This document shows positions 2,213 to 50,977 of a stretch of DNA of 64,000 bases, one piece after another. Under the pieces are notes generated by a model that was given only the letters and a program-made list of their open reading frames with translations, did no database searches and was not told the DNA's origin. Both the position numbers and the translations under genes were made by a program. Position 1 is the stretch's first letter. The number at the start of each line of letters is the position of its first letter. Source of the DNA: Hoylesella timonensis 4401737 = DSM 22865 = JCM 15640 (GTDB taxonomy: Bacteria; Bacteroidota; Bacteroidia; Bacteroidales; Bacteroidaceae); the NCBI RefSeq assembly GCF_000455445.1, contig NZ_HG417092.1, forward strand, positions 164,529 to 228,528, read 5' to 3'.

Positions 2213-5092
2213 ATGGTACAGCAAAGAAAACCTTTCGATAAACTTTTCTCCCAGTTGCAGGACATCAGGGATAAGGACGGGAAACTGCTCAATACGGTGC
2301 TCTGGTCCCAGAAGGGAAATCCGTCCGTACTCTTCGAGATTGAGAATCCCGTGCAGCAATATTGTACCGATGCTGACCTATATTGCCTCTTCCAGGACGT
2401 ACTGGCCAACATTATAAAGACACTCGGTGAGGGGTATGCCCTACAAAAACAGGACATCTTCTGCAAGCAGGAGTATCACCATGAGCCGGAGGGAGGACAG
2501 GAGTTCTTGACCGAAAGCTACTTCAACTACTTCGAGGGACGGGAATATACCGACATACGCACCTTCCTCATCGTTACGCAGGAGTGTGCGCACAATGCCT
2601 TCGTGAAATACGACGCCAAACGATGGGAGGACTTCCACGTCAAAGTAGCCAAGATAGCTGACATTCTGCAAGAGAAAGGTATCGCCCACCGCAAGCTGAG
2701 CAAGTCGGAGATAGACGAGTATCTTCACCGCTTTATGGCATTCCAGTTCAAGCAGGGTCCATTCTCCATGACCAATTTCAAGTGTTCTGATGAGAACCTG
2801 AAGATAGGCGACCGGACGGTAAAGTCTTTTCCCTTGGTGGATATAGATGAAATCAATATGCCTAACTTCGTGAGGCCGTTCCTTTCGGTCAACATCAACG
2901 GCACCTACATTGCCACCGACCTCTTCTCTTTCCTAACGGAGATACCTTATACTGACTGCGTCATCTACAATCAGGTCATACAAATACCTGCCCAGCGCAG
3001 GCTTATGCGCAAGCTGCAAAGCAAAGCGAAGCGCCACGGCTCCATGCCCGATCCGTCGAACCGCATCGCCAAAGAAGATATAGAACGACTGTTGGACACA
3101 CTGGCTGTGGATAGCAAACTGATGGTTTATACCAATTTCAATATCCTCGTCAGTTGTCCGCACGACAAGATAACGCCGGTTACATCGTACATCGAGACAA
3201 AGCTCTACGACTGTGCCATCATGCCCTCTCGATCGGCATATAACCAGCTGGAGCTCTTCACGTGTAGCTTTCCCGGCAATGGCTATGCCTTCAATCCTGA
3301 TTACGACCTTTTTCTTACGCTGTCGGATGCGGCGCTCTGCCTATGCTTTAAGGAGCATCTGAAACATTCTGAGGAGACGCCGCTCAAAACCTACTATACA
3401 GACAGGCAGGGACTTCCTGTGGCGATAGACATTACCGGTAAGGAGGGAGTACACAAGTACACTGACAATGCTAATTTCTTCTGTATCGGACCCAGTGGCA
3501 GCGGTAAGAGCTTCCACATGAATAGTGTGGTGCGCCAGCTTCTGGAGCAGAATACGGATGTGGTGATGGTAGATACTGGAGATAGCTACGAGGGTATATG
3601 CAGCTACTTCGGTGGCACCTATATCACCTACTCCAAAGAGCATCCCATCTCCATGAATCCGTTTAAGATTACGAAGACGGAATACCGACAGAACTTCGGG
3701 GAGAAGAAGAACTTTCTCAAATCGCTTATCTTCCTCATCTTCAAGGGAAGCGAGATGCCTTCAAAGATTGAAGATGCTATCATCAATCAGGTCATCGTGG
3801 AGTATTATGACGCTTTCTTCCACCCCTTCCGTGGTTTTTCCGCAGAAGAAAAAGATAGGTTGCGCCACCGGCTCTTGCTGGAGGATAAAAAGAACGGTGA
3901 GTATGAGAAGTATGGTGAGAAGGTGGAGCATAGCTACTATCAAGATTTTGAGGGATATCAGGGAAACACTTCTGCAAGTGTAAATGCAGAAAGCAGAGAT
4001 ACCATCTTTTCTGAAGCCGAGGTTGCGCATCACATCAAGGCAAAGCGCCAGGTAGAAAAGCTGCATGCTCTGGTCAATGACCAGGCTGCGACGGAGGGTG
4101 AGAAGGTGGCTGCCAACCGTCAACTCATGCGCCTCATGGCTGAGGTTATCGAAGGCAGCTACCTCATGCGCATCGAACAGAAAATCGAGAAGATGGAGCA
4201 GCGCAGACGTAAGATGACGGTCAGGAAGCTGTCCTTCAACACTTTCTATGAATATGCGCTGGAACGTATTCCACAGCTGATGACCGAAAAGAAGATAGCC
4301 TTCGACATTGACAACTTTGCTGCTATTCTCGAACAGTTCTACCGTGGTGGCGAGCTGGAGTGCACGCTGAACAACGATCTGGAACAGTCACTCTTCGATG
4401 AACGGTTTATTGTCTTCGAGATTGACAAGATCAAAGATGACCCTGTGCTGTTCCCTATCGTGGTGCTCATCATCATGGATGTGTTTCTCCAGAAGATGCG
4501 TATCAAGAAAGGCCGAAAAGCTCTCATCATCGAAGAGGCATGGAAAGCTATCGCCTCGCCTACGATGGCAGAATATATCAAGTATCTCTACAAGACGGTG
4601 CGTAAGTTCCACGGCATCGCCGGAGTAGTGACACAGGAACTGAACGACGTGATTGATTCTCCCATTGTCAAGGAGGCTATCATCAACAACAGCGACGTGA
4701 AAATTCTGCTTGACCAGGCCAAATTCAAGGATCGGTACGATGACATCGCGGCTATCCTCGGACTGACAGCGGTTCAACGACAGCAGATCTTCACCATCAA
4801 CAGTCTTAACAACCACGAGGGGCGGAATTACTTCAAGGAGGTATGGATATGCCGTGGACAGGTATCGGATGTGTATGGTGTGGAAGAACCGCCTGAATGT
4901 TACTGGGCCTACACCACGGAACGGGCGGAAAAGGAAGCCCTCAAGATTTACACGAAGCATTATGGTGGTAACATCCAACGGGCCATCACAGAGATAGAGA
5001 AAGACCGCAGAAAGGCAGGGATAAGCAAATATCTCGATTTCGCGCGGCATGTCAACGAACATCAAAACATTATGAGCTTATGGAAAAGTTAA
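2213..5092 (+). CDS. traG: TraG, VirB4-type conjugation ATPase
   Basis: A 959-residue ATPase powering the mating-pair apparatus. The Walker A motif GPSGSGKSFHMN lies near residues 426-437, and the Walker B region LIIEEAWK near residues 771-778. The N-terminal half carries the CagE/TrbE/VirB4-like domain. A long charged insert around residues 560-690 (helical, Glu/Lys-rich) separates the two ATPase halves, which is usual for Bacteroides TraG. It overlaps the next gene by 13 bases, consistent with coupled translation. Length and motifs are intact, so the protein is probably functional. Confidence 0.93.
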   Translation: MVQQRKPFDKLFSQLQDIRDKDGKLLNTVLWSQKGNPSVLFEIENPVQQYCTDADLYCLFQDVLANIIKTLGEGYALQKQDIFCKQEYHHEPEGGQEFLTESYFNYFEGREYTDIRTFLIVTQECAHNAFVKYDAKRWEDFHVKVAKIADILQEKGIAHRKLSKSEIDEYLHRFMAFQFKQGPFSMTNFKCSDENLKIGDRTVKSFPLVDIDEINMPNFVRPFLSVNINGTYIATDLFSFLTEIPYTDCVIYNQVIQIPAQRRLMRKLQSKAKRHGSMPDPSNRIAKEDIERLLDTLAVDSKLMVYTNFNILVSCPHDKITPVTSYIETKLYDCAIMPSRSAYNQLELFTCSFPGNGYAFNPDYDLFLTLSDAALCLCFKEHLKHSEETPLKTYYTDRQGLPVAIDITGKEGVHKYTDNANFFCIGPSGSGKSFHMNSVVRQLLEQNTDVVMVDTGDSYEGICSYFGGTYITYSKEHPISMNPFKITKTEYRQNFGEKKNFLKSLIFLIFKGSEMPSKIEDAIINQVIVEYYDAFFHPFRGFSAEEKDRLRHRLLLEDKKNGEYEKYGEKVEHSYYQDFEGYQGNTSASVNAESRDTIFSEAEVAHHIKAKRQVEKLHALVNDQAATEGEKVAANRQLMRLMAEVIEGSYLMRIEQKIEKMEQRRRKMTVRKLSFNTFYEYALERIPQLMTEKKIAFDIDNFAAILEQFYRGGELECTLNNDLEQSLFDERFIVFEIDKIKDDPVLFPIVVLIIMDVFLQKMRIKKGRKALIIEEAWKAIASPTMAEYIKYLYKTVRKFHGIAGVVTQELNDVIDSPIVKEAIINNSDVKILLDQAKFKDRYDDIAAILGLTAVQRQQIFTINSLNNHEGRNYFKEVWICRGQVSDVYGVEEPPECYWAYTTERAEKEALKIYTKHYGGNIQRAITEIEKDRRKAGISKYLDFARHVNEHQNIMSLWKS

Positions 5093-5821: not shown

Positions 5822-6517
5822 ATGAAAAAGGCATGGAATATAAAAAGATATGGGCTGTTGTTATGGTGCTTCATGGTAGCAGCTCCCATCTTTGCCGATG
5901 TTATACCGACGCCGAGGGATCCGCTAACCATTGAAGCCCTTATCAGTCTGCATAAACTCATCAAGGGTGAAGAAGACAAGGCCTTGGCAAAGGTGGCAAC
6001 GAGTTTTGGTGAACAGAGCATCATCACAAAGGGTGCTACCAAGTTCAATGATGTCAGAACGATCTTGGACAGCAAATTGAATAATGGCTATTCCTACGTC
6101 ATCTTAGCCAGCGCATTGGGTTCGACAGTCAACAGCATGTATCGCCTGATACAGGAGTACTCCCAGTTTACACGCTCCACTTTTCAATATACCTCCAAGA
6201 AACCGATGGTGGCATGGTACTATACAGAAGCGAATATGGCTTGTGCAAGAGAAATCAAAAACATCAAAGCCCTTTATGCATCACTTGCCGCCAGCGGTGT
6301 CAATGTAATGAAGGCCTCAATGGACGAGAAGCTTCACCTTATCATGGAGTTGAAGACTTCCATAGAGAACATGAGAGGTATCATCGACGGTGCCAACGTC
6401 TGGTGTAGCATCATTACCGTCGGCGGGGTCAGATACGATTATATTTGGGACATCCTCAACAGTGAGGTGACAGACAAAATAGCAGAAGGAGTAATTAACA
6501 AATGGAACAGTATTTGA
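5822..6517 (+). CDS. secreted helical transfer protein, paralog 2
   Basis: About 231 residues. The start at ATG 5822 gives a clean signal peptide (MKKAWNIKRYGLL to IFA, about residues 1-23); the frame is open further upstream, but that part overlaps the previous gene. The mature part is helical with no recognisable catalytic motif. It ends in AEGVINKWNSI, a weak version of the VDGLI-xx-W tail shared by the genes at 5080 and 23942. It overlaps the next gene by 16 bases. Probably a periplasmic subunit of the transfer apparatus; function unknown. Confidence 0.5.
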   Translation: MKKAWNIKRYGLLLWCFMVAAPIFADVIPTPRDPLTIEALISLHKLIKGEEDKALAKVATSFGEQSIITKGATKFNDVRTILDSKLNNGYSYVILASALGSTVNSMYRLIQEYSQFTRSTFQYTSKKPMVAWYYTEANMACAREIKNIKALYASLAASGVNVMKASMDEKLHLIMELKTSIENMRGIIDGANVWCSIITVGGVRYDYIWDILNSEVTDKIAEGVINKWNSI

Positions 6518-7194
6518 GAAAATTTCTATTCATCATGACAGGGTTACTTAATCTTTCCCTGTCCACATTTGCACAGCATCCGACCTACGATGACCAGAAG
6601 GAAAAGCAGTGGAAGTCAATGGAGAACGGACCATGGGACTTTGCTCCTGCATGGTATTATTACTTATTACACAAGAAATATAGCGGCGGTGAGGCTTACT
6701 GGCAATGGAGATTTCTCAAATCTGGCTGGAGAGTTAGGTTTAAGGAAAGTAAGTCCAGCGTGAAACGCATCATGCCCACTCGTATCACCGCCGAAGAGAC
6801 GCAACGACAGAAGATGAAGGAAACCGAACAGGAACGTGCGAAGATAGAAGAACTCTACAAGGAGGAAGTGGCGCGTGCCGCTGACAGGAATGTCGATCTG
6901 GTTTATTCCTCCTTCAAAGCCGACTTCGAACGCATGCAGAATTCTATTTCCGACGGACTGCTCTTCTGTATGCAGAGGAGCAGCGGCAAACTGAAATTTC
7001 AGGTCGATGAGCTGACCCGGCAGAACGAAATGATTTGCCAGGATATAGCCTATATCCATCAGACGGGTGTGGGATATGAACTTGAAAACGCCAAACGGCA
7101 GAAAGCCTACCAACAATATAAGAAACAGATGGAGGAAATTGTCAGTCGCGTGGCGCATCTTGTAGGCATGGCGCAAAACTATTACAAACGATAA
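6502..7194 (+). CDS. secreted coiled-coil protein of the transfer operon
   Basis: A 230-residue protein with an N-terminal signal peptide (to about residue 24, STFAQ), an aromatic-rich stretch (WDFAPAWYYYLL, about residues 45-57) and a long Glu/Lys/Arg-rich helical region (about 95-135) typical of coiled coils. The C-terminal third is also helical. It sits between paralog 2 and TraJ. Small secreted proteins with this layout occur in some Bacteroidales conjugative elements (possibly the DUF5045 family, recalled and unverified). Role unknown. Confidence 0.5.
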   Translation: MEQYLRKFLFIMTGLLNLSLSTFAQHPTYDDQKEKQWKSMENGPWDFAPAWYYYLLHKKYSGGEAYWQWRFLKSGWRVRFKESKSSVKRIMPTRITAEETQRQKMKETEQERAKIEELYKEEVARAADRNVDLVYSSFKADFERMQNSISDGLLFCMQRSSGKLKFQVDELTRQNEMICQDIAYIHQTGVGYELENAKRQKAYQQYKKQMEEIVSRVAHLVGMAQNYYKR

Positions 7195-7198
7195 GATT

Positions 7199-8557
7199 AT
7201 GGTTACAGATATTTTGATGAATATTGCTAGTCAGCTACTCACCATGGGACTGCCCTCTATCGACCAAAGCCTTGAGAAGCTGCTGGTGGCGATGGAGACT
7301 TTTCCGAAGTCGGCGGTGCTGGGCAACACCGTGGGCTACGCCCGTGTCATAGGCTTGTGCCTCGCCCTTTGTGTGGGTTCCTACGAGTGCTGGATGATGA
7401 TGCTTGGGCGTAGGGCGATGGACGTAATGAAACTTCTCCGCATCGTGGGACTGTCCATCTGCATCACTTACAGTTCTTGGATCTGTCAGGAACTGGCCCG
7501 ACCGGGCAAAGCGTTGGAGGCGACCACCAAACAGATGGCGAGCAGCAAGAACAAGGAAGTGGCTGCGCTGGAACTCAAAGTAGCACAGAAGCAGTCGGAC
7601 TATCTCAAACGACTCCGCCAAGTGCAGGACAGTATTGAGACAGCGAAGCAGGTACAGACCATCGGGGAGGATGCCCATTGGTGGGATAAGCTCATCTACA
7701 ACATGGAAAATCTGGGCACGACCATCAACAACTATGCGCAGCGAGCCACCGTAGCCGCTGAGACAAAAGTGTCGGAATGGATAAACGACGTGATACGTTT
7801 CATCGGTGAACTGATATTCCAGATGTCGTATTATGGCATCTTGGTAGCTCAGCGTATTTTCATGGCTATACTGGCCACATTTGCCCCCATCATGTTCGCC
7901 CTCTCGATAGTACCGCCATGGAGCAGTGCATGGTCGCAATGGATCAGCAAATATCTGTCCTTGTCGCTATGGGGATTTGTCACCTATATGTGCCTGTACT
8001 ATATCGACTTCATCCTGATGTATAACCTCGGAGAGGACCTCAATGCCTATGGCAGGCTTCTGCAGGGGCAGGTGAACTCTTGGGGACAGATAGGCGCTTT
8101 GGGCATTCAGGGCATCGGCTCCAACTGCATGTATGCTATGGGTATGCTGGTGGGTGCCTATATCATCCGTTTCGTCCCTGAAGTGGCATCATGGCTAATT
8201 CCAGGGGGTGTGAGTTCAAGTGCTGGCAGTGCAGCTGGAGCTGTCGTGGCAGGAGCCGTGGGCGGAGCTGTGGGCAGTGCCGCTTCTACTGGAGTGGGTA
8301 TCGCTTCAGTGGCTACACCAATGGCGGGCGCGGCAGTCTCTGGTGCGGCGCATCTTGGCGCGGCTGGTATGGCAGGAGCTGTGAGCGGTGCAAGTGGCTA
8401 TTCCGATGGCGGAGTGGCTACTATGGCTGGAGTCATGGGAGGCGCTGCCTCAGGTGTGGCGAAAGAGGCCAAACACATGTTCAAAGAAAGCTCTGCTGGC
8501 AAGGCGGCATCGAAGATGGGCAACTCCATGAGAGATTCTTATAACAGAGGAAAATAA
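7199..8557 (+). CDS. traJ: TraJ, polytopic VirB6/TrbL-like conjugation protein
   Basis: A 452-residue membrane protein. Hydrophobic segments lie near residues 40-60, 80-98, 200-235, 245-285 and 305-330. A Gly/Ala/Ser-rich tail (about residues 340-425) follows, which is the usual signature of TraJ of Bacteroides elements and of VirB6/TrbL proteins. A charged stretch around residues 115-150 may be coiled coil. It forms the inner-membrane channel component in this family. The gene follows the previous stop by four bases and is followed by traK after 17 bases. Confidence 0.85.
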   Translation: MVTDILMNIASQLLTMGLPSIDQSLEKLLVAMETFPKSAVLGNTVGYARVIGLCLALCVGSYECWMMMLGRRAMDVMKLLRIVGLSICITYSSWICQELARPGKALEATTKQMASSKNKEVAALELKVAQKQSDYLKRLRQVQDSIETAKQVQTIGEDAHWWDKLIYNMENLGTTINNYAQRATVAAETKVSEWINDVIRFIGELIFQMSYYGILVAQRIFMAILATFAPIMFALSIVPPWSSAWSQWISKYLSLSLWGFVTYMCLYYIDFILMYNLGEDLNAYGRLLQGQVNSWGQIGALGIQGIGSNCMYAMGMLVGAYIIRFVPEVASWLIPGGVSSSAGSAAGAVVAGAVGGAVGSAASTGVGIASVATPMAGAAVSGAAHLGAAGMAGAVSGASGYSDGGVATMAGVMGGAASGVAKEAKHMFKESSAGKAASKMGNSMRDSYNRGK

Positions 8558-21165: not shown

Positions 21166-21423
21166 ATGAACACAGATAACATAAATTTAAAGAAAATGGC
21201 ATATAGTTTTGAAGAGCTGGTCCAGCTCAAACAGGACAGACGGATAGGATGGCTGCAGTTCACGCTTGAAGGTGAACATGCGGACGACTTCATGCAGTGG
21301 TGCAAGGAACACAACATCCATCCCAGCGAAGATACCGCAGAGTTCTATATGGAGTCGGTGGAACTGAGTATGCAGGATAAGCAAATCTTGGCGGAGGACG
21401 ACTATGACTACAGCTGGAACTGA
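21166..21423 (+). CDS. small acidic conserved protein
   Basis: An 85-residue protein (75 if ATG 21196 is used) rich in Asp/Glu with no recognised domain. A G-run about eight bases before 21166 could act in initiation; the start at 21196 is preceded by an A-rich leader more typical of this phylum, so the start is undecided. The 3' end overlaps the ArdC-like gene by 20 bases, which suggests coupled translation. Confidence 0.5.
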   Translation: MNTDNINLKKMAYSFEELVQLKQDRRIGWLQFTLEGEHADDFMQWCKEHNIHPSEDTAEFYMESVELSMQDKQILAEDDYDYSWN

Positions 21424-22723
21424 AACAAAGACGCTCGGTCAGAAAGCCGTGGACAGGTTCACGGAGATGATGATTGAGCGCATGGAACAGATGAAGTCCG
21501 TTGGCTGGCATAAGGGGTGGATTGGCAGTGCTACTGCCCCTGGTGCCATGCCGCAGAATGTATCTGGGCGTGGATATTCGGGAAGTAACTCTTTCTTCCT
21601 CCAACTGGACACGGCTCTCCGTGGCTACTCCATGCCCGTGTACCTCACTTTCAAGCAGGCCAACGACATGGGAGCACATGTGAAGAAAGGTGAGTCGGCT
21701 ATGCCAGTGCTCTACTGGGATATCATGGCAAGGGACAAGGATGGTAAGAAAGTTTCTAAAGAGGCCTACCGCAAGATGAGCCTTGCAGAGCGGATGCAGG
21801 TGCAGACCATTCCTTTCCTGAAAGCCTTCAATGTGTTCAATGTCGATCAGACCAATCTGGTTGAGGTGAAGCCTGACAAGATGGAAGCTCTCAAAAAGCT
21901 GTTTGCCCCACCGGAGCTGCGTGATGCCGAGGGGATGTTTACCAGCAAGGCTCTCGACCGTATGTTTGAGAAGCAGGAGTGGATTTGTCCTATCCAATAT
22001 GACAAGCAGGTACCCGGTGCATACTTCTCTCCCTCCAAGGATATCATCGTCATTCCAAAGAAAGAGCAGTTCAACATCGGCAAGACACTGGAAGAGGTCT
22101 ATAAGGACGGTATGGAATACTACTCCACGGCCCTGCACGAGATGGCTCACTCCACCGGTACGGAACCTCGGCTGAACAGGGGCAGCCATGAGAAGTTCGG
22201 CGATGCGAAATATGCCAAGGAGGAACTGGTGGCTGAGCTGACGGCAGCGATGGTAGGCAACTCAATGGGCTTTGACAAGCGTATTCTGGACAACAATGCG
22301 GCTTACCTCGATAGTTGGATCTCCACTCTCAAGGAAAATCCTAAGTTCATCGTGTCGGTGATGGCCGACGTGAACAAGGCTGCTAACATGGTACTGGAAG
22401 AGGTGGACAAGCAGAAAATGGCGTTGGGTGAAGAGCCTTTACTCGGTAAAAACAGAAACCTTTCTACCGACATTCCCAAGGACAAGGTCGTTTTTGAGAA
22501 CGCCTCCATCATCAAGCAAAATGATGGCGACTATGCGGTGCGAGCCTCATTCCAAGGTCAAGATTTGGGACTCAAACCGATTGACCGAAATTTGGGCATC
22601 CTTTATTTCTCTCTCTCGGAAGAAACGGAGAAGGCGCGTCTGCTCTCCCATACGCTGGAAAAAAGTTTTGGCGATGTGGTCATGGCACAGACACAGCAGC
22701 ATGCTCATCGTATGAAAATATAA
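21404..22723 (+). CDS. ArdC-like antirestriction protein (ssDNA-binding plus zincin)
   Basis: A 439-residue protein with an ArdC N-terminal (DUF1738-like) domain, recognised by GRGYSGSNSFFLQL and VYLTFKQANDMGAHVKKGE near residues 50-95. A zincin domain follows with HEMAH at residues 245-249, and an additional C-terminal segment of about 110 residues. ArdC-type proteins bind single-stranded DNA and protect incoming plasmid strands from host restriction. The presence on a conjugative element fits that job. The start overlaps the preceding small gene. Confidence 0.8.
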   Translation: MTTAGTETKTLGQKAVDRFTEMMIERMEQMKSVGWHKGWIGSATAPGAMPQNVSGRGYSGSNSFFLQLDTALRGYSMPVYLTFKQANDMGAHVKKGESAMPVLYWDIMARDKDGKKVSKEAYRKMSLAERMQVQTIPFLKAFNVFNVDQTNLVEVKPDKMEALKKLFAPPELRDAEGMFTSKALDRMFEKQEWICPIQYDKQVPGAYFSPSKDIIVIPKKEQFNIGKTLEEVYKDGMEYYSTALHEMAHSTGTEPRLNRGSHEKFGDAKYAKEELVAELTAAMVGNSMGFDKRILDNNAAYLDSWISTLKENPKFIVSVMADVNKAANMVLEEVDKQKMALGEEPLLGKNRNLSTDIPKDKVVFENASIIKQNDGDYAVRASFQGQDLGLKPIDRNLGILYFSLSEETEKARLLSHTLEKSFGDVVMAQTQQHAHRMKI

Positions 22724-22745
22724 CCCTTTATACTTGTAGGCAGTT

Positions 22746-23945
22746 ATGAAACAGAGTGTAAACTACAAAGACCTGAAAACAAAGGTAGGCGTAGATGATA
22801 TTGCCTATTATCTGGGCTATCGTCTCGACCGCTCGGCTGGTGTGGGAAGATACATTGAAATGGTCTTGTCTGACTCCACGGGTCATCAGGACAAGCTCAT
22901 CATCAAGAACCCGAAGGAGAAGGCGGCGCAGACTTATTTCCGGCGTAACGGGGCAAGAGGCGGTGATGTGGTATCTTTGATACGTGAGAACCTTAGCAGC
23001 TTCCACGAGTCTGGAAGAAACGAGTGGGAAATCATCGGCAAGGTGATGGCCCACTTCGCCAATGAGCCGATTCCTGACTATGGGGATAGCCAGTATCTTA
23101 CGAAAGCTGGGTACACGGGTAGTATCGTGTTTGATCCGAAACGCTATGAAACGAAGGATGTTAATGGTGCGCCTTCTGAAGTGATGGCATTCTTTGCCCA
23201 GCGTGGCATCAACGAGGAGACGGTGAGTGCCTTCGCACCATTTATCAAGCAAATAAGGGACAACAGCCATACCACCTACAAGCAGTTCAACATCGGCTTC
23301 CCTTATACGGAGGCTGGCAAGGACAAGGTGGTGGGCTATGAAATCCGTGGCTTTGGCTCATTCAAGAGTAAGGCAGCTGGTACTAACTCGACGACGGGGG
23401 CATGGATTGCTGATCTCTCACAAGGTGGAGAGCCTACAGACATCAGACATGTCTATTTCGCTGAAAGTGCCTACGACATCATGGCGTTCTATCAGCTGAA
23501 TCACCTTCGCTTAGATGGTACTCATTCGGCATTCGTATCGCTGGGAGGCACTTTCTCCGACAGTCAGATCAAGGGTATCATGGCGCATTACCCGGAAGCT
23601 AAGGCGATGGACTGTTTTGATAATGACCTTGCCGGGCGTATCTATGGCATCCGCATGGCTGCCTTGCTGGAGGGCATCCGCTTGAATGTGCATAAGGAAG
23701 AGGACAAGGTGATGATTACTGTTGGCGCGAAGAACTTTGCCATTGCTAATGAACAGCTGTCTATCCGTGAGCTTCGCAAGCATATCCACATCCGCTATAA
23801 TGTAGGTGAATGGAAGGCTGCTGCGAACTACAAGGACTGGAACGACCAGCTGATGGGTAAACAGATGGAAGTTGTGGCGGTAGAAAACAAGTTTGCAAGA
23901 GATCGGAATCTGGCTGACCGCCGTGAGAAAGGGGTGGGCTTATGA
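22746..23945 (+). CDS. Toprim domain protein (DUF3991-like primase relative)
   Basis: A 399-residue soluble protein. The N-terminal part (DIAYYLGYRLDRS, RNGARGGDVVSLIRENL) resembles DUF3991, and the middle carries Toprim elements: YFAESAYDIMAFYQ with its Glu near residue 241 and the FDNDLAG acidic motif near residue 297. There is no CHC2 zinc finger. Such proteins accompany conjugative elements and probably act in DNA replication or repair after transfer. It overlaps the next gene by four bases (ATGA-type). Confidence 0.75.
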   Translation: MKQSVNYKDLKTKVGVDDIAYYLGYRLDRSAGVGRYIEMVLSDSTGHQDKLIIKNPKEKAAQTYFRRNGARGGDVVSLIRENLSSFHESGRNEWEIIGKVMAHFANEPIPDYGDSQYLTKAGYTGSIVFDPKRYETKDVNGAPSEVMAFFAQRGINEETVSAFAPFIKQIRDNSHTTYKQFNIGFPYTEAGKDKVVGYEIRGFGSFKSKAAGTNSTTGAWIADLSQGGEPTDIRHVYFAESAYDIMAFYQLNHLRLDGTHSAFVSLGGTFSDSQIKGIMAHYPEAKAMDCFDNDLAGRIYGIRMAALLEGIRLNVHKEEDKVMITVGAKNFAIANEQLSIRELRKHIHIRYNVGEWKAAANYKDWNDQLMGKQMEVVAVENKFARDRNLADRREKGVGL

Positions 23946-24664
23946 AACGAATCTTCATCATATTATTGTTGGGTAGTTTAACCTTCTGCCCTATGATGGC
24001 ACAACAGACGGACCCGACGCTGACGGGTGCAGTGATAGCGCAGAGCGGAATGCTGAAAAAGATTTTCAAGGACCGCGAGAAGACACAGAAAAAAATCATT
24101 GCTGCGGAAACGGCAGTCACTGTGGCGATGGACAGAATGCACAAGGTGGAGGACAAGATGCTGGCGTATCTCTCCAATGCACAAGGAGCCATGCAGAACC
24201 TTTATCAGATCAAGCGAGCGGCAGAACTGACAACAGTAGAGATTCCACGAAACATGAACCTGTTGCGCCAGTCGCTGCCCGGTCATCTGAAAGGAACGGC
24301 CATTGCTCTCTTGGTGTCTGATGAACTGACGGATGCTGCCACGCAAATGGCTTCGCTCTATCCGTTCATGAAACAACTGGTAACGAGCGGCACATACAAC
24401 GTGAGTGGCTATGATGCCACCGGCAAGTCTGTGAATGAGAAGCATAAGGTAAACCTACTGTCCTCAGCGGAACGGTATTACATTGCCAATGAGGTGGTGA
24501 CGAAACTGGAGACGATCAACACCGATCTGTGGCTGCTGGCATGGCAGGTAAGGACGTACTCGTGGAATGACCTGTGGTTTGGGCTTGATCCTGAAGGTTG
24601 GGCCACGGTGATGTCAGGAAAGGCGATTGTGGATGGACTAATCTATGAGTGGAAATATATTTGA
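23942..24664 (+). CDS. secreted helical transfer protein, paralog 3
   Basis: A 240-residue protein with a signal peptide (residues 1-20, ending MMAQQ) and a helical body with heptad-like charged stretches (residues 35-75). Its last 25 residues, DPEGWATVMSGKAIVDGLI then a Trp, align with the end of the TraI-position protein at 5080-5808, so the two are very likely paralogs though 18 kb apart. A periplasmic transfer-apparatus role is inferred. The start overlaps the Toprim gene, so it is co-expressed with DNA-processing genes and not with the tra operon. Confidence 0.6.
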   Translation: MKRIFIILLLGSLTFCPMMAQQTDPTLTGAVIAQSGMLKKIFKDREKTQKKIIAAETAVTVAMDRMHKVEDKMLAYLSNAQGAMQNLYQIKRAAELTTVEIPRNMNLLRQSLPGHLKGTAIALLVSDELTDAATQMASLYPFMKQLVTSGTYNVSGYDATGKSVNEKHKVNLLSSAERYYIANEVVTKLETINTDLWLLAWQVRTYSWNDLWFGLDPEGWATVMSGKAIVDGLIYEWKYI

Positions 24665-24690
24665 GAGGTCTGAATATGGGCATTTTTCTG

Positions 24691-24698
24691 TACTTTTG
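24691..24698 (+). promoter_or_regulatory. possible -7 box upstream of the zinc-ribbon gene
   Basis: TACTTTTG matches the TAnnTTTG consensus and lies about 87 bases upstream of the start at 24785, in the only gap of this gene run. No TTTG is present at the right distance upstream, so this is a weak candidate. Confidence 0.3.
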
Positions 24699-24784
24699 CA
24701 TGGCGACACTTTGTTATTTCGAGGAAGAGCAGTGCAAACAACGGATTTGCCTGGTAATCATTAAACTTTAAGAAATGCAAAGAT

Positions 24785-25582
24785 ATGAGTGATACAAATA
24801 ACTTAATGATTTGCCCCGTTTGTGGCAGAGGTACAATGGTGCACGACGAGCAGGACTGGAAGTGCAGTGAGCAGTCCTGTGGATTCGTTATCCCTAATCG
24901 TTTGTTTAATTTGGAGGTAACGGAGGAACTGGTGGCGCCACTTGTCAAGCATGGTCATACGGGGGTGCTCTCGCTGCAAAACAAGGACGGACAGTATTTT
25001 AAGGCGGCTCTCGTCATCCGTAATGGAAAGGTGGAGGTATCATCAGGTGTACATTATATCGACGGAGTATGTCCTATCTGTGGAGGTAAGATGCGCAAGA
25101 CTTCAAAGGGCTACCGATGTGAAAATTCCATCGGTGAGCATCCATCGTGTGACTTTATGATTCCGGGTATTATCTGCAACCGTAGGATTATGGAGCAGGA
25201 TGCCGTGGCGTTCTTGAATGGCAAGCATATCGCCCTGGAGGGCTTTGCCTCAAATGAGTGGAAGATGTTTGCCTCGTCGTTGTCGATAGCCGAAGGCAAG
25301 GTGAAGCTGGAATCGCGCATCGCAAAGTGTCCGCATTGCGGCGGCGACCTGCATGTTGGACTGAAGGCCTACAACTGTGCCAACTATCGCAATGCCGAAC
25401 ATCCATGCAAGTTCTCTATCTGGCGTAACATCAGCGGTCATGCCGTATCGGTGGAGGAGGTGAAGCAAATTTGCGAACAGGGCGTAACCAGAGACTGCAT
25501 CGAATTTTACAAGGAAGACGGTACGGTGTACTACAAGCGGCTGCAACTGACACCTGAAAAAGACAGAATAATCATGATTTAA
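24785..25582 (+). CDS. three-repeat zinc-ribbon protein (topoisomerase I C-terminal-like)
   Basis: A 265-residue soluble protein made of three similar modules, each with CPxCG near its start and a second Cys pair closer to its middle. They start with CPVCGRG (about residue 10), CPICGGK (about 98) and CPHCGGD (about 182). Each is followed by a beta-rich stretch and a C-x-F-x-I type motif. The pattern resembles the C-terminal zinc-binding repeats of type IA topoisomerases, here without the catalytic part. A single-stranded DNA-binding role is inferred. Confidence 0.6.
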   Translation: MSDTNNLMICPVCGRGTMVHDEQDWKCSEQSCGFVIPNRLFNLEVTEELVAPLVKHGHTGVLSLQNKDGQYFKAALVIRNGKVEVSSGVHYIDGVCPICGGKMRKTSKGYRCENSIGEHPSCDFMIPGIICNRRIMEQDAVAFLNGKHIALEGFASNEWKMFASSLSIAEGKVKLESRIAKCPHCGGDLHVGLKAYNCANYRNAEHPCKFSIWRNISGHAVSVEEVKQICEQGVTRDCIEFYKEDGTVYYKRLQLTPEKDRIIMI

Positions 25583-25595
25583 GCAGTTATTAGTG

Positions 25596-26099
25596 ATGAA
25601 AAGAAAAAGTATTATATATGTAGTGGTGGCATTGTTATGCCTCACTGGTTGTAAAAATAAGCGTCATGCGTTGAAGCAGTTGGCTGTGGAGAATCTGAAA
25701 CAGTCAGTGGAATATCCTAAGCAGTTGCAGATGTTGGCGATATCAGAGCCTGATTCGGCTTTTGGGTTCAGCTACTTCTCGCAACAAGAGAAGGCGGGCA
25801 TCATCCGTATCATGAAGTCGGTCACGGACAGTATTATGAAACGTACCAACAATATGCAGTCGCTGGACATCAATGACTTCTACGTGATGGATCTCGCCGA
25901 AAGACAGATGCGTGCCAACTCGGACATTCGACAGATGCTCAGTCAGGCAACTGGCAAAAAGGAATGGACGGGTTGGAAAGTGAAGATCGACTATCAGGCG
26001 GTAACGCATCATGGCATGAAATACAATGCTGAACGGTGGTTCTTCATCAGTAAGGACGGCAAGTCAGTGGTGAGGACGTTTGAACTACCGCTGCCATAA
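25596..26099 (+). CDS. lipoprotein of unknown function
   Basis: A 167-residue protein with a clear lipoprotein signal (LLCLTGC, acylated Cys near residue 19). The mature part is helical at first and ends with a beta-rich stretch, with no recognised domain. ATG 25596 is chosen over the GTG one codon before. It closes the plus-strand run and is followed by a terminator hairpin. Lipoproteins at this point of conjugative elements may act in entry exclusion or surface assembly, but nothing here proves it. Confidence 0.55.
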   Translation: MKRKSIIYVVVALLCLTGCKNKRHALKQLAVENLKQSVEYPKQLQMLAISEPDSAFGFSYFSQQEKAGIIRIMKSVTDSIMKRTNNMQSLDINDFYVMDLAERQMRANSDIRQMLSQATGKKEWTGWKVKIDYQAVTHHGMKYNAERWFFISKDGKSVVRTFELPLP

Positions 26100-28887: not shown

Positions 28888-28976
28888 CAAGGTATGCCCA
28901 GCTTTCAAAATCGGGCAGCGGTCACAGTCCGCTGCCTGTTTGGGAGAAAGATGCTTAGCTGAATAATGCTTGGTTA

Positions 28977-29023
28977 AAATAAAAGTCTTGTTTTTTGATT
29001 CAAAAAAAACAAGACTTTTATTT
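28977..29023. terminator. strong bidirectional terminator-like hairpin
   Basis: A perfect 20-base inverted repeat with a 7-base loop (28997-29003). The left arm ends in TTTTTT and the right arm begins with AAAAAA, so either strand yields a U-rich hairpin. It sits at the end of the three-gene run and directly before the RNA-like region. Confidence 0.75.
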
Positions 29024-29036
29024 GGGAGTACTTAAT

Positions 29037-29232
29037 TTCCCTGAAAGCCGTATTTCGCTATCACGTCATAAATGAGTGTGATGACTCCACACCGCTTTCA
29101 TCGCTCCGTTGGGACACAGAGCAACAAGGGAGAGCGGTAATCCATTATGTGCTGGATGGAGTGCATAGCATGGTACAGAAAGGATAGGCTGCCGCTGTTA
29201 CGCTGGTGATGGATTGTCGCCCATGACCGCTC
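29037..29232 (+). ncRNA. structured RNA candidate, copy 1
   Basis: No gene is present. The sequence folds into a layout shared with copy 2. CCCT(29039-42)/AGGG(29127-30) and GAAAGC(29043-48)/GCTTTC(29094-99) enclose a hairpin ATCAC-TCAT/ATGA-GTGAT (29060-82). A further hairpin is GCTC(29103-06)/GAGC(29119-22) with GGGAC in its loop. Then GAGCGGT(29132-38)/ACCGCTC(29226-32) and AATCCAT(29139-45)/ATGGATT(29209-15) close the 3' domain. The two hairpins differ in sequence from copy 2 yet keep their pairing. Strand is chosen from the order of the motifs and is not certain. Confidence 0.55.
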
Positions 29233-29317
29233 CACGGCTCCGCCCATCTTACTTCCTGCTCCGTGCCTATGCCCACCATATCGCACATTTTTCCTGTGTG
29301 ACGTCAGTGCATCTCCA

Positions 29318-29353
29318 GTGTAACCCAACTCTTGTGTTGCATTGGGGTTACAC
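29318..29353. other. 9-base inverted repeat between the RNA copies
   Basis: GTGTAACCC (29318-29326) and GGGTTACAC (29345-29353) form a perfect stem around an 18-base loop that contains a smaller CAAC/GTTG stem. There is no T-tract, so it could be a protein-binding site or part of the RNA region. Confidence 0.4.
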
Positions 29354-29392
29354 AGACTACCTATGTGGTTTTACCTATATTTCAGAAGGCTT

Positions 29393-29650
29393 TTTCCCTG
29401 AAAGCCGTATCTCCATTCATTGCGCATAAAGCAGCAACCATTACAATACCGCTTTCATCATTCTTCAGGGACGTAGAATGACAAGGGAGAGAGGTTAGGT
29501 CATTTCGTGCGCTACAAGGCCAGTGATGAGTTGAAGATGCCACATTCCATTTCAAACTTGCAGCAAGATGCCCAAGCATCCTTGCATGCAGTTCTTCCAT
29601 TCCATTTCCGGCTCTCTTCAACTCATTACCTGCCATGGCGCTCTCTTTTT
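29393..29650 (+). ncRNA. structured RNA candidate, copy 2
   Basis: The same layout as copy 1. CCCT(29396-99)/AGGG(29484-87) and GAAAGC(29400-05)/GCTTTC(29451-56) enclose a hairpin TTGC-GC/GC-GCAA (29420-37) with an ATAAA loop. ATTCT(29460-64)/AGAAT(29475-79) again has GGGAC in the loop. The 3' domain is closed by AGAGAG(29488-93)/CTCTCT(29641-46) and a 12-base stem ATGAGTTGAAGA(29526-37)/TCTTCAACTCAT(29615-26). A nested GCAAG-ATGC hairpin lies at 29563-29585. The closing stem is followed by a T-run, as at the end of a transcript. Confidence 0.55.
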
Positions 29651-29945
29651 TGTTGCGAGAAACTAAACTTCTTCGGTGTTCATCCATTTTCTTCGCGAAG
29701 TTAGCTATTGGCACATTATGATCAAGTACCAGTGCCTTATTTGTCAGGTTTTTATGGGCCGCTCTTTATTTTATCATGGTATGTGAATAAAAACTTGAAG
29801 AATTGCGCAATCTTATAAAGTTTGGTTTACAAAGTTAGACCTTTTCTATAAAACAAAATTAATAACCTTCGATTTTTTTATAATATTTTACCCTCTTCCA
29901 TTAAGGTATAGAGTCAACCAGCAAGTGCAAAATTAGTCAATCCTT
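29651..29945. other. gene-free A/T-rich stretch
   Basis: No supported gene. It holds a CTTCGCGAAG palindrome (29691-29700), a 17-base match to 51598-51614 (ACCCTCTTCCATTAAGG at 29890-29906) and, at its right end, the first copy of a 39-base direct repeat. It ends at the inverted repeat of the IS4-type element. Confidence 0.4.
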
Positions 29946-31260: not shown

Positions 31261-31441
31261 GGGCGATAGATAACTATAGACTACGCTCTGCAGGGTATGC
31301 AACTTTAATGGGGTCGTATCTCGAATGCCACCCAAAATAGGAACCGCCGTATGCGGAACCGCATGTACGGTGGTGTGAGAGGTCGGTGAACACGAAAGTA
31401 GGAAATAAACACCTATGATTAGTGTTTACCTCCTACTCGAT
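31261..31441 (+). mobile_element. group II intron 3' fragment (domains V-VI)
   Basis: GAACCGCCGTATGCGG and CATGTACGGTGGTGTGAG (within 31341-31379) form the domain V hairpin of bacterial group II introns. A domain VI-like stem follows and the 3' end is CCTACTCGAT, nearly the same as in the two introns at 34637 and 50294. Only the 3' end remains; the IS4-type element abuts its 5' side. It lies on the plus strand, opposite to the other two copies. Confidence 0.65.
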
Positions 31442-34636: not shown

Positions 34637-35298
34637 ATCGGGTAGGAGGTAAATGTTATTCATAAAAGGCATTTACCTCCTACTTTCACATTTACCGACC
34701 TCCCACACCACCGTACGTGCCGTTCGGCATACGGCGGTTTCGTACTTTTACACCTCACGGTGTGTGGCAAGTTGTTTTCAGCTATCCCTTTGAGTAACGT
34801 CACTTCTATCCTATTGTCGGATTCCGTCCTATCGTCTTGGATAGAGAGCTCCTTTCGGACATCTGACGAAGAAATTCGCAGGGTAGCATTCATTTACTAT
34901 TGCACTGCACGATTCGGTCCTTCCCTGTAGGCACACGTACCTTGGGTACTATGACCTCTGCTGACTTCTCACGGCAAGCTTTACTCCGCTTCTTTCGTAA
35001 AAACAACTATTTGAAACGTCCGTAAGACCTCCTCGGATAAGAACATTATCTTTCCATCTTATACCTACTTCATTTACACCGACCATTCCGAATAGCTATG
35101 GGACTTTGATTTGTCTGGCAATCTTATCCATGGTCATATGCCTTATATGAAGTTTCTGTTCGTTAGGCCAGATGTTTGCCGCCGGCTTCCTTCAGATTTC
35201 ACCTCACGATGAACACCCTTGCCTTTGGCTATGTAATTCCCGCTATTAGGGCTTACTCGGGACTTCCACCCGTTAGATAATGCTCATGCCGAGCGTAC
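34637..35298 (-). mobile_element. ORF-less group II intron, copy A
   Basis: Read on the minus strand it begins GTACGCTCGGCATGAG and holds the conserved domain I-III stretches (CGGACGTTTCAAATAG, GTCAGCAGAGGTCATAG). It ends with a domain V hairpin (GAAACCGCCGTATGCCG / CACGTACGGTGGTGTGGG) and CCTACCCGAT. Only a 77-codon remnant frame sits where the reverse transcriptase would be, so it needs help in trans to move. The 5' end lies just after the hairpin and T-run of a terminator, the usual target of class C introns. It is about 22 bases shorter than copy B near 35070. Confidence 0.75.
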
Positions 35299-38409: not shown

Positions 38410-40620
38410 TCAGTTTCCCAATTCTAATTGATTCTTCACCAAGGCAAAGTATTTGCCACGTTTGGCAGTCAGTTCCTCGTGTGTACCCACTTCTGCAATT
38501 TTACCCTCATCCAAGACTACTATCTGGTCGGCACTGCGAACAGTGGAAAGACGGTGCGCCACTATTACCACGGTTTTTTCCTTGTAGAACTCTGAGAGGT
38601 TTTCTGTAATGGCACGTTCATTGGTGGCATCGAGGGCATTGGTGGCTTCATCCAAGAAAACAAACATCGGATTCTTGTAAACGACCCTTGCAATAAGAAT
38701 TCGTTGCCGTTGTCCCTGACTGATGCCCTGCCCATCCTGTCCTATCATCGTATTGTAAGCCAAAGGCAAGTCTTCGATGTAATCGGCAATGTTTGCCACT
38801 CGGGCTACGTGGCGGATACGCTCTAAATCGGGTTCATCACCAGATATGGCAATGTTTCTCGCAATGGTATCGGAGAAGAGATAGCCCTCTTGCATCACAG
38901 CTCCGCATTGGCTTCGCCACCAACCGAGATTATATTCATTCAGATTGGCATTGCCTATCCGGATACTACCATTCAATGGCTCATAAAAGCCTAACAGGAG
39001 CTTTACAAGCGTGGTTTTCCCGCTTCCGCTCGCTCCGACAATTGCCGTAACCTTGCCGTTGGGGATGGAGAGATTGATGTCCGAGAGAATATCTTTCGAA
39101 CTATATATATCGTATTTGAAAGTGATGTTTTTTATCGTGAGAGAATGTCCTTCGGTTGTTTCTTCCGAATATGTGTTTTGTGTCCGTTCGACATTCTCCT
39201 CATTGGTTTCGGTATGGATTTCGTTCATGCGATCAAGACTGATGCTTACGTCTTGCCACGAGTAAATGAATTGTATGAGTTGCTCCACGGGGCTGTTAAG
39301 CTGTCCGATGATATATTGCACCGCCAGCATCATACCGAGGGTCATATTGCCATGTATCACGGCAGTGGCAGCAAGAACGGTAATCAGAATATTCTTTACT
39401 TCATTGATGGTAATACTCCCGGCCTGTTGTACTTGTTGGAGGTTCAGAGATTGCAGATTGACCTTGAAAAGGTCAGCTTGCACGTCTTCCCATTCCCACC
39501 GTTTACGCTGCTCGCATCCCTGCAACTTGATTTCCTGCATACCGCCTATGAGTTGGTAGGTAACGTTGCGGTTGCGCCCGGCTTGCTCGAAATACTTGTA
39601 GTCTAGCTGTCTACGCTTTTTTAGAAAGAGGATTATCCAGCCTGCATAAAGCGATGTGCCCAATAGGAACACGAGGAAGATACCGAGATTGTAGACTGCA
39701 AGGACGATGCCGAACACAAGAAATGTTATAAACGAGAACAGCAGACTTAGACTGCTTGATGTAAGGAACTGCTCCACACGTCGGTGATCTTCAATGCGTT
39801 GCAGAAGGTCACCCATCAGTTTGGTGTCGAAGAATTTCATCGGAAGTTTCATCAGTTTGATGAAAAAGTCCGAGATGAGCGAGATATTGATGCGTGTGGA
39901 GATGTGCAGAAGAATCTTTGAACGGATAAAGTCGATGGCAGTACGGCTGAATAGGAGCATCATTTCAGCTAAAAGTACTAACCATACAAAGCCGATGTTC
40001 TTTCCTCCGATACCCGTATCAACGATGGCTTGAGTGAGGAACGGGAAAACGAGTTGTAGCAGTGAACTGAGCAACAGGCCAAGTACCAGTTGCGTGAAGA
40101 ATCGCTTGTATTTCTTGAGGTAATTCCAAAGGAATTTCATTCGATTTTGAATTGGCGCTGTTTCTGTTTTTTTTTGAGAACAGAATCGTCCCATCGGCTC
40201 GAGGAGCAGAGCAACTCCCTTCTCTTCGCCGTTGGACTTGGTGCTCACCCAATGCTCGCAAAATTCTCGCTTGTTGTATGTCACTAAGCCTCTTGCTGGA
40301 TCTGCCACATAGATAGTAATTTCCCCTTTTTTGTGCTTCTTTATCTTATAAACAACGGTAAAATGATTTTGGTCCCAGTGCGCAATACAAGGAAGGGGAA
40401 CTTCGGAAGTAAGTGTTTCTAAGGAGAAGTATCCCCCAATCGTCTTGAATCCAATACTTTCTGCAGCCTTACTAATACCCCACAATGAAACGCCATCCCT
40501 ACTTAACGCGCAAGTTCGTCGTATCGCCTCAATATCAGGTTGTAACTTATTGTATTGGGCAATCATCGCCAAACAAGACGGACCGCAGTCCATTGCATCT
40601 TTTTGTTTATAAAACTTCAT
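38410..40620 (-). CDS. peptidase-containing ABC exporter (C39 PCAT)
   Basis: A 736-residue protein with three parts. A C39 cysteine protease domain has the DCGPSCLAMI motif, catalytic C12 and a His in the WDQNHFTVVY segment. A six-helix membrane domain spans about residues 160-450. The ATPase domain has Walker A GASGSGKTTL, signature ISQGQRQRI, Walker B MFVFLDEATNALD and the H-loop VAHRLST. It cuts double-glycine leaders and exports the mature peptide. The precursor at 44653-44871 has such a leader. All catalytic residues are present. Confidence 0.92.
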   Translation of the reverse strand: MKFYKQKDAMDCGPSCLAMIAQYNKLQPDIEAIRRTCALSRDGVSLWGISKAAESIGFKTIGGYFSLETLTSEVPLPCIAHWDQNHFTVVYKIKKHKKGEITIYVADPARGLVTYNKREFCEHWVSTKSNGEEKGVALLLEPMGRFCSQKKTETAPIQNRMKFLWNYLKKYKRFFTQLVLGLLLSSLLQLVFPFLTQAIVDTGIGGKNIGFVWLVLLAEMMLLFSRTAIDFIRSKILLHISTRINISLISDFFIKLMKLPMKFFDTKLMGDLLQRIEDHRRVEQFLTSSSLSLLFSFITFLVFGIVLAVYNLGIFLVFLLGTSLYAGWIILFLKKRRQLDYKYFEQAGRNRNVTYQLIGGMQEIKLQGCEQRKRWEWEDVQADLFKVNLQSLNLQQVQQAGSITINEVKNILITVLAATAVIHGNMTLGMMLAVQYIIGQLNSPVEQLIQFIYSWQDVSISLDRMNEIHTETNEENVERTQNTYSEETTEGHSLTIKNITFKYDIYSSKDILSDINLSIPNGKVTAIVGASGSGKTTLVKLLLGFYEPLNGSIRIGNANLNEYNLGWWRSQCGAVMQEGYLFSDTIARNIAISGDEPDLERIRHVARVANIADYIEDLPLAYNTMIGQDGQGISQGQRQRILIARVVYKNPMFVFLDEATNALDATNERAITENLSEFYKEKTVVIVAHRLSTVRSADQIVVLDEGKIAEVGTHEELTAKRGKYFALVKNQLELGN

Positions 40621-42449: not shown

Positions 42450-43682
42450 TTATATTGTTTCGTAATATTTCTGAATATAACTATATGCTTCAGGGTAAAT
42501 CATAAAAAAGTCTTCTACGTCCCTACTTCTTACATCCGCTTCTGTTTGGGTAACGAAATAGCTGCATTTATCCTTTCTATTATCTACAATACCATTATTA
42601 AACATGCAGCACAAACATGTTCTTCTATCAGCGCAGCATTGGCAGTTCTTTTCTGCTCTTGTATAGTACTCATTATACTTTTGGGCAATAGCTTCAAAGT
42701 CAATATTAATTTCTCCATCTTTGACCATCCCTAAGTAGTACTGATAGCCTATTCTTTCACAAGGCATTATTTTTCCACCAACAGTTATAAAGACTTTTTT
42801 TCCAAATGGCAAACATGTACCCGTCGGAATGAATTTTCTCTGCTTCTTCCCAAAAAACAGCTCTTCATACCCCAAATAAAAGAAAGGTGAATGCATTTGC
42901 ATATAACGAGCAATGCCGTCAAAACGAGGATCATTCAAGAAATTATCCATTTTATTAACACGCACCATTGAGTCTTCCTTATTTCGGTACATCGCCATAA
43001 ACTCATCTTTATAATCAGGGTTGATACCCGTATCGTTAATTTCGCTAATACTTGGAACCTTACCAAACTCCAACAAAATAAACCTATTGATAGATTCTAC
43101 TGTACTTCTATTGCTAAGGACTGAGTTGAAGTTAACACAATCTTTGTAATAGATAGGATATTTCTCTCTCAATTTATTTACCGCTGCAACAATATCTTTG
43201 AAAGCTGGTTTCTCAGTATGATATTGCCTATAAGAAGAACCTTGTTCGTCGCCATCCAAACTGATTAGCAATCTAAAATTCTTCTCTGCAAAGTAATCCA
43301 TATATTTTGGTAAAAGTAGAGCATTTGTTGTAAGTGAAAAAACGAAGGTTTTATTAAAACCACATAGGTGTTCTTCAATATATGAAACACATGACTGAAT
43401 AAAATCCATGTTTAATAGGGGTTCTCCACCATAAAAACTAATGTATATTATATCATCTCCTGTTGTACTATAACCAGTTTCCCACAAGCCCTTAATATAC
43501 ATAAGAAAAGCGTAGGCATCTTTAGGCCTCAAACTTCTATTACTCCTGGGATCTTTGTTATTGTATATCTTTCCATAGCCACAATAACTACACGAAAGGT
43601 TACATTTCTCCGTAATCTCAAATGTAATTTGAGGAGTATTAGCCAAACAATGTTTTACTATTTCTGCATTAATAAAGTTCAT
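42450..43682 (-). CDS. radical SAM peptide maturase, GG-Bacteroidales type
   Basis: A 410-residue enzyme. The radical SAM cluster CNLSCSYC (C27, C31, C34) lies near the N-terminus, followed by the SAM-binding ISFYGGEPLL near residues 80-90. The C-terminus has a SPASM-like set of cysteines (GTCLPFG, IMPCERIGY, CQCCADRRTCLCC) for auxiliary iron-sulfur clusters. It probably makes a crosslink or epimer in the core of the precursor at 44653; the exact reaction cannot be read from the sequence. The cluster order matches TIGR04148-type systems (recalled). Confidence 0.85.
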   Translation of the reverse strand: MNFINAEIVKHCLANTPQITFEITEKCNLSCSYCGYGKIYNNKDPRSNRSLRPKDAYAFLMYIKGLWETGYSTTGDDIIYISFYGGEPLLNMDFIQSCVSYIEEHLCGFNKTFVFSLTTNALLLPKYMDYFAEKNFRLLISLDGDEQGSSYRQYHTEKPAFKDIVAAVNKLREKYPIYYKDCVNFNSVLSNRSTVESINRFILLEFGKVPSISEINDTGINPDYKDEFMAMYRNKEDSMVRVNKMDNFLNDPRFDGIARYMQMHSPFFYLGYEELFFGKKQRKFIPTGTCLPFGKKVFITVGGKIMPCERIGYQYYLGMVKDGEINIDFEAIAQKYNEYYTRAEKNCQCCADRRTCLCCMFNNGIVDNRKDKCSYFVTQTEADVRSRDVEDFFMIYPEAYSYIQKYYETI

Positions 43683-50293: not shown

Positions 50294-50977
50294 ATCGGGT
50301 AGGAGGTAAATGTTATTCATAAAAGGCATTTACCTCCTACTTTCACATTTACCGACCTCCCACACCACCGTACGTGCCGTTCGGCATACGGCGGTTTCGT
50401 ACTTTTACACCTCACGGTGTGTGGCAAGTTGTTTTCAGCTATCCCTTTGAGTAACGTCACTTCTACCCTATTGTCGGATTCCGTCCTATCGTCTTGGATA
50501 GAGAGCTCCTTTCGGACATCTGACGAAGAATTTCGCAGGGTAGCATTCATTTACTATTGCACTGCACGATTCGGTCCTTCCCTGTAGGCACACGTACCTT
50601 GGGTACTATGACCTCTGCTGACTTCTCACGGCAAGCTTTACTCCGCTTCTTTCGTAAAAACAACTATTTGAAACGTCCGTGAGACCTCCTCGGATAAGAA
50701 CATTATCTTTCCATCTTATACCTACTTCATTTTTTCGCTAAGCTCAAGGAAACTCCACCGACCATTCCGAATAGCTATGGGACTTTGATTTGTCTGGCAA
50801 TCTTATCCATGGTCATATGCCTTATATGAAGTTTCTGTTCGTTAGGCCAGATGTTTGCCGCCGGCTTCCTTCAGATTTCACCTCACGATGAACACCCTTG
50901 CCTTTGGCTATGTAATTCCCGCTATTAGGGTTTACTCGGGACTTCCACCCGTTAGAAAATGCTCATGCCGAGCGTAC
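50294..50977 (-). mobile_element. ORF-less group II intron, copy B
   Basis: Almost identical to copy A (34637-35298) with the same ends (GTACGCTCGG and CCTACCCGAT), the same domain V hairpin and the same short remnant frame without reverse transcriptase. It keeps about 22 bases near 50735-50756 that copy A has lost. It too sits directly after the hairpin and T-run of a terminator. The sequence on either side differs from copy A, so these are separate insertions. Confidence 0.75.

Follow-up and report, generated by a model that had tools for sequence, protein, structure and literature searches.

Beyond the conjugation module of a conjugative element of Hoylesella timonensis, the same blocks of sequence occur twice, separated by hairpins that differ between the two copies. 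Do these copies encode a structured RNA, from which strand would it be read, and what could such an RNA do for the element? A sequence-only reading of the locus had proposed two plus-strand copies of an RNA with covarying stems and no known family. We examined this proposal with homologs from other genomes. Throughout, "the window" is the whole stretch of 64,000 nucleotides that was analysed.

The paired cores and their place in the element

The blocks were found exactly where that reading had placed them (Table 1). In the window, CCCTGAAAGCCGTAT has a third match with 3 mismatches, CCGCTTTCATC one more match with 1 mismatch and AAGGGAGAG no other exact site; as a set, they occur nowhere else. 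A composite pattern matched the 3.2-Mb genome of the strain at 2 places, both at this locus and on a single strand, and its reversed control gave 0 matches in the same genome. The two cores are identical at 61/102 positions, grouped in blocks, with compensatory changes, and the compensatory hairpins pointed out by the sequence-only reading are present in both. Copy 2 consists of P1 (UCCCU/AGGGA), a P2 hairpin with a GUCCC loop and P3 (GAAAGC-G-GUAU / AUAC-G-GCUUUC). Copy 1 has the same architecture, with other sequence in P2 and in the apical part of P3. The long-range outer closing stems that had also been described are not conserved among the five sequences compared: the stem of copy 1 is disrupted or changed in P. 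pallens, H. colorans and P. histicola, and that of copy 2 is absent in H. colorans and unchanged in three other relatives, so that it shows no covariation there.

Table 1. Features of the window around the two cores and in the neighbouring stretches.
Feature	Position	Strand	Remarks
TraG-like protein	2213-5089		
3' part of conjugation-side module	21404-26099	+	DUF3991/Toprim_2, Toprim_Crpt, lipoprotein-like ORF; points towards the RNA; Pfam basis, ORFs at 22746 and 24785
Strong inverted repeat	28977-29023	both directions terminator-like	A/T runs on both sides; from sequence
RNA core, copy 1	29038-29139	-	102 nt; R1 111.9 bits (sequence also in R1 model)
Block CCCTGAAAGCCGTAT, exact	29039 and 29396		
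Block CCGCTTTCATC, exact	29092 and 29449		
Block AAGGGAGAG, exact	29126 and 29483		
Hairpin GTGTAACCC/GGGTTACAC	29311-29352		between copies 1 and 2; read by eye
RNA core, copy 2	29395-29496	-	102 nt; R1 115.1 bits (sequence also in R1 model)
TAACTTTG, possible Bacteroidetes -7 box	29830-29837	-	weak candidate without conservation; lies 341 nt upstream of copy 2
22-kb stretch	about 29805-51900		
Lone group II D5/6 match	31342-31441	+	
Group II intron pieces (D1-D4 + D5/6)	34637-35213	-	no long ORF inside
C39-like ABC transporter	38410-40620		
Radical-SAM-like ORF	42450-43682		
Group II intron pieces (D1-D4 + D5/6)	50294-50892	-	similar to the copy at 34637

The ORFs between 2 and 26 kb are mostly on the plus strand and belong to the conjugation module. 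Its TraG-like and Toprim_Crpt proteins match Bacteroidales plasmid proteins, near which TraK, TraM and TraN are annotated, and the DNA of its 3' part is similar to that of loci L093, L094, L096 and L099. The RNA is found about 3 kb past this module, at the point of convergence of the element's two arms, and is placed on the opposite strand. The cores are past the tra side and beside a terminator-like hairpin, in agreement with the location given by the sequence-only reading.

In three related loci (L107, L055 and L059), window position 29804 joins about 51902 with some 50 bases between, hence the 22 kb were either inserted in the window or lost from the three other loci. At least part of this stretch is also found in H. 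bergensis (L054). It contains a DDE transposase and group II intron pieces, the two copies of which measure about 580-600 bp end to end, and a peptide export cluster was recognised by eye around the transporter and the radical-SAM-like ORF.

On the minus strand, the terminator-like hairpin at 28977 follows copy 1 by about 14 nt, and no ORF but only this hairpin comes directly after the copy. The terminator scan placed a T-run at +155 from the start of copy 1. Over 19 sequences the scan returned a sense terminator in the window only; it missed repeats that are visible by eye, and visual inspection shows a similar repeat in six aligned relatives. As a separate observation, P. histicola apparently carries a different long hairpin (by eye) where the window has the one between the copies. 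The promoter scan gave no conserved promoter. TAACTTTG was called from the consensus TAnnTTTG, which we take to be the Bacteroidetes -7 box, and falls past 29804, outside the part common to the window, L107, L055 and L059. In six type B loci (see below), boxes TACCTTTG were found at -180 to -236, with no -33 TTG at the scanned spacing.

Homologs, fold and strand of the core

A pattern scan of the genome_contigs collection (one genome per species, 84,980 species, contigs of at least 3 kb) yielded 7 stretches, 6 of them from true relatives: Prevotella brunnea, Hallella bergensis, P. histicola, P. pallens, H. colorans and Prevotella sp. HJM029. In the seventh, L056 (Caldisericota), the pattern matched but the remainder of the motif did not, and it was discarded. 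A covariance model (R1) was built from 12 sequences of the window's own element type (type A) and run on whole genomes. It found the RNA in 1/393 genomes of the order (E≤0.01), which is the genome of the strain itself, in 3/301 of the family (E≤0.1) and in 20/398 of the genus (E≤0.1), 13 of these 20 not being of type A. With a second model built from 22 sequences (R2), 14/279 genomes of the genus were positive at E≤0.01; in the order, 2/295 were positive at E≤0.1, one of which was rejected, and nothing beyond the strain's own genome was convincing. The genome samples of the R1 and R2 searches overlap, and about 10-14 first-look candidates were scored per genome, about 10-13 in the searches of the order. 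R2 also detected three loci outside its model at E 4e-12 to 5e-10, two of them near type B model sequences and the third (L140) an additional member of type C whose P3 tip, GUGCU...AGCAU, is compensatory. Locus L108 of genome G360 (30 bits), a CCCC/GGGG-rich stretch, was rejected by eye. Altogether, 24 different genomes from the genus-level group of the window contain the RNA, that of the strain included (20 from one genus search and 4 from two further searches), and it was also found in Hallella colorans. These data demonstrate a real family with homologs outside the window locus, as obtained by both covariance searches and the pattern scan.

Plasmids and phages gave little. The stretches with a related module from six related Bacteroidales plasmids contained a single match of 13.9 bits (E 0.64), which was not counted; the RNA is therefore not present in all elements of this kind. 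By blastn, the core and the type A region were unmatched in plasmids, two diverged cores had only short chance matches there, and the whole region had only short chance matches in phages. Forty IMG/VR stretches fitted a pattern in a chance-like manner and were rejected as viral homologs. Two stricter patterns gave 3 stretches with no R2 score and no stretch at all, respectively. As a measure of noise, 24 of the 40 viral stretches, preselected with a P3-like pattern, contained 7 R2 matches, the best at 24.2 bits (E 0.0026).

Read from the minus strand, the core is modelled as a compact three-way junction in which P1 closes the junction of P2 and P3. Family members are about 75-118 nt long. P2 is a hairpin of free sequence with the conserved GUCCC loop, and P3 is a stem whose sequence is conserved apart from a variable tip and which contains a G-G mismatch. 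When 17 sequences were folded singly, P2 and P3 were part of the best structure for 16; P1 was missing in one L090 copy and shifted in L073, and the type F core (L097; L075) did not fold into the consensus.

Pair counts were made on an alignment fitted to the model, in which 35 sequences reduce to 31 when identical ones are counted once; a chance hit at window 60053-60115 is present in alignment A3 and was omitted from A4. Among these 31 distinct sequences, standard pairs fill 91.5% of the pair cells, compared with 30-49% when the partners are slid, and changes on both sides were seen in 8/9 pairs of P2, 3/10 of P3 and 0/5 of P1. Cells with both sides changed number 101, against 36.7 in shuffles, while the number of pairs showing such changes (11 versus 10.2) and of pair types (33 versus 31.9) does not exceed the shuffles. 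We also applied a home-made test resembling R-scape (APC-corrected G statistic; 200 nulls in which substitutions were re-scattered on a FastTree tree). Restricted to the proposed pairs (two-set), it gave 4/24 pairs at E≤0.05 and three more near 0.11; over all pairs, 1/24 of the proposed pairs and 0/4441 of the others reached E≤0.05. The covarying stems of the sequence-only reading are borne out by some significant pairs. Since relatives elsewhere keep the fold while the letters change, this is very probably a real and undescribed RNA.

The plus strand assumed by the sequence-only reading was not favoured. RNAalifold, run on type A sequences only, returned -26.1 kcal/mol with 26 pairs for the minus strand and -15.2 kcal/mol with 19 pairs for the plus strand. 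Summed over groups, distinct G-U states on the minus strand exceeded A-C states by 28 to 13, a near-constant G-U pair included; with this pair removed, G-U was ahead by 29 to 11 cells in the 22-sequence alignment. Copy 1 folds at -39.2 kcal/mol, with z -4.35 on the minus and z -1.00 on the plus strand. In single-sequence folding by type, the minus strand was better in types A and C and the two strands were about even in type B, while the other strand folded better in the three type D cores and the type E core (L099) tested. Taken together, the folding models suggest that the RNA is probably read from the minus strand of the window; a plus-strand RNA is less likely, in view of its weaker consensus fold and the surplus of G-U states. 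The T-run noted at the end of copy 2 does adjoin that copy. If the RNA is on the minus strand, as is probable, this run lies upstream of it. The cores are non-coding. No sense or antisense frame is stop-free across all 14 cores checked, and the 110-aa ORF lying over copy 2 matches no Pfam family and carries a frameshift in P. histicola.

Carrier elements and competing explanations

Conjugative transposons of at least three types carry the RNA; in four genomes it is found on contigs with no visible conjugation genes. Type A, the element of the window, was found in 9 genomes or records (seven from the R1 genus search, G1033 and H. colorans L058), with two copies in each; the pair is present in 9/9 of these elements at a spacing of 355-363 nt. 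In type B (L094, L095, L096, L102, L104, L105, L144 and L145, from 7 genomes), the core lies beyond a radC-like gene (Pfam tested in L094 only) on the opposite strand. Type C (L093, L101 and L143, from 3 genomes) has a short P3, and in L093 and L143 an integrase gene (Pfam tested in L093 only) precedes the core on the same strand by about 660 and 470 nt, respectively. The type D cores (L092, L098, L100, L103 and L106, from 4 genomes) are those on contigs where no conjugation genes were seen, four of these contigs being shorter than 6.5 kb. The single type E core (L099) adjoins a chromosomal-looking topoisomerase III gene, with a conjugation module further along the contig, and type F (L097) is a diverged copy. 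With respect to a related conjugation module, the RNA keeps to one side and to a convergent orientation in types A, B and C as well as on the contig of L099.

Several further features were seen at these loci. A tRNA-Ser(TGA) gene lies within about 400 nt of the type C integrase gene in both L093 (9857-9942) and L143 (6222-6307), and is likely the attachment site of these two elements. The type D cores L098, L100, L103 and L106 are in intergenic DNA with repeated blocks common to several genomes, and L098 has two cores 1.4 kb apart plus a weak third match at 3234-3317 (17 bits). L092 carries three identical 36-nt CRISPR-type repeats (6140-7453) with gaps of 414 and 792 bp, one of which holds a hisC fragment (by eye); nearby ORFs resemble Cas1/Cas2, and the core begins 9 nt past the last repeat. 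A link to CRISPR arrays was dropped, none being seen in the sequences examined around the other cores.

The convergent position, which recurs among loci, is also what would be expected if the core acted in cis within a longer minus-strand transcript, as its folded 3' end or a processing site (the 3' UTR of the right arm, for example), and guarded against convergent transcription. The bidirectional terminator-like hairpin just after copy 1 and the integrase genes upstream of the type C cores are consistent with this explanation. It is nevertheless unlikely: beyond L093, L143 and L099, only unassigned ORFs and no recognisable same-strand gene precede the core directly, the scan, although it overlooked repeats visible by eye, gave no sense terminator for the other loci, the conserved sequence of P3 exceeds what an insulator needs, and the tandem copies are left unexplained.

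The behaviour of the two strands bears on a second explanation, in which the conserved structure is one of single-stranded DNA, a lagging-strand origin or a recombination or priming site used during single-strand transfer. Conjugation transfers single strands, type B folds well on both strands, and the three tested type D cores fold better on the other strand, where, in an alignment read by eye, the C-A oppositions of the type D tips would be G-U (or G-T). A DnaG-type primase gene is present in the same arm in L107. The preponderance of G-U over A-C states on the minus strand, not favoured by DNA, and the six related plasmids, whose stretches hold no convincing copy, make a DNA site quite improbable, and the core probably acts as RNA rather than as folded DNA. 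A small mobile or repeated (MITE-like) DNA unit hitch-hiking in these genomes would fit the intergenic type D copies, which share several hundred bases of flank and of which three are in genome G593, and the proximity of the L092 core to a CRISPR-type repeat, but is very doubtful given the constant spacing of the type A pair and sequence changes that track base pairing.

A possible regulator and its known counterparts

The reading that we tentatively prefer, at somewhat less than even confidence, is a minus-strand structured RNA serving as an element-encoded regulator, either trans-acting or derived from a 3' UTR. It is preferred because the RNA mostly accompanies one element family, because its sequence is conserved at potential partner-binding sites and free at those that need only pair, and because types A and B have no recognisable cis-controlled gene. 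In such a scheme, a Prevotella conjugative transposon would make an RNA beyond the 3' end of its conjugation module, on the opposite strand; the conserved P3 could serve as a platform for binding protein or RNA, and contacts through the C-rich loop and the 5' tail (CUCUCCC, GUCCC) might tune the expression of transfer or maintenance genes. We infer every step from the conserved fold to the regulation of transfer, and that the RNA regulates transfer at all is only faintly suggested. The search for targets found none, the 9-base complement of the conserved tail occurring within the window only in the cores themselves. A more elaborate version, in which a dedicated regulator family with a novel three-way junction sits at the meeting point of the arms, as a tandem pair in one type, and has partly been taken over by host chromosomes, is conceivable but rather doubtful. 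Few RNAs that control conjugation are known in Bacteroidota, and a covariation-backed RNA in Prevotella conjugative transposons is a concrete, deletable target for the question of transfer control. Were it to prove nothing more than a DNA fold or the structure of a 3' end, it would still be a conserved element of these transposons that has gone undescribed. We know of no transfer-control RNA with such a three-way-junction fold.

Comparison with Rfam 15 gave no family over the core, in line with the sequence-only reading. With gathering scores as the threshold, 7 matches were obtained in the window, all to group II intron families and none over the core. A permissive search of 28900-29800 gave 16 matches, all below gathering, most on the terminator hairpin and none fitting the core, and six homologous loci gave 2 sub-threshold matches to unrelated families. 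No report naming this RNA was found in the literature searched, including passages of PMC10994844, PMC9299015, PMC8040213, PMC7160235, PMC2864571 and PMC7366714. Two published candidates come near it. The GUCCY-hairpin (Weinberg et al. 2010), which Table 1 of PMC2864571 assigns to Bacteroidetes and Proteobacteria in a row with no Rfam number, has a name that fits the GUCCC loop of P2, but the window RNA is a three-way junction and not a lone hairpin, the comparison being one of name and table row. HMP_4078, among the 3161 candidate structured RNAs from human microbiomes in PMC8040213, is summarised there as a 109-bp "palindromic" candidate, mostly from Bacteroidetes, near D5 N-terminal and phage integrase domains; by this description, it resembles the window RNA in size and kind of neighbourhood. 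The family is very probably undescribed; the candidate list of PMC8040213 or the GUCCY-hairpin motif may, however, include it.

Among RNAs with a role in conjugation, the gene of RteR, the trans-encoded small RNA of CTnDOT that lowers tra expression, adjoins the excision gene exc, a topoisomerase III homolog. L099 is the only core beside a topoisomerase III gene, relatives of which are present in 36/119 genomes of the order, and 30 loci around topoisomerase III genes contained no R2 match. For L099, the idea of an RteR/exc-like position was dropped, as its topoisomerase III looks chromosomal. According to PMC7366714 and PMC9299015, RteR and sgm-sRNA are cases of integrative elements that use RNAs in transfer control. 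The sgm-sRNA of Salmonella Genomic Island 1 is likewise an integrative-element RNA near a mobilization region and is needed for transfer (PMC9299015, in part), but it is from another phylum, is longer (several hundred bases) and adjoins oriT, as far as descriptions can be compared. RteR, one of only two sRNAs known in Bacteroides by 2020 according to PMC7366714, is a small RNA of similar size from a Bacteroidales conjugative transposon. The window RNA shares this location in conjugative transposons and differs in that its element type carries two copies; the likeness is drawn by analogy. Our best guess, on this analogy, is that the RNA may work in the manner of RteR.
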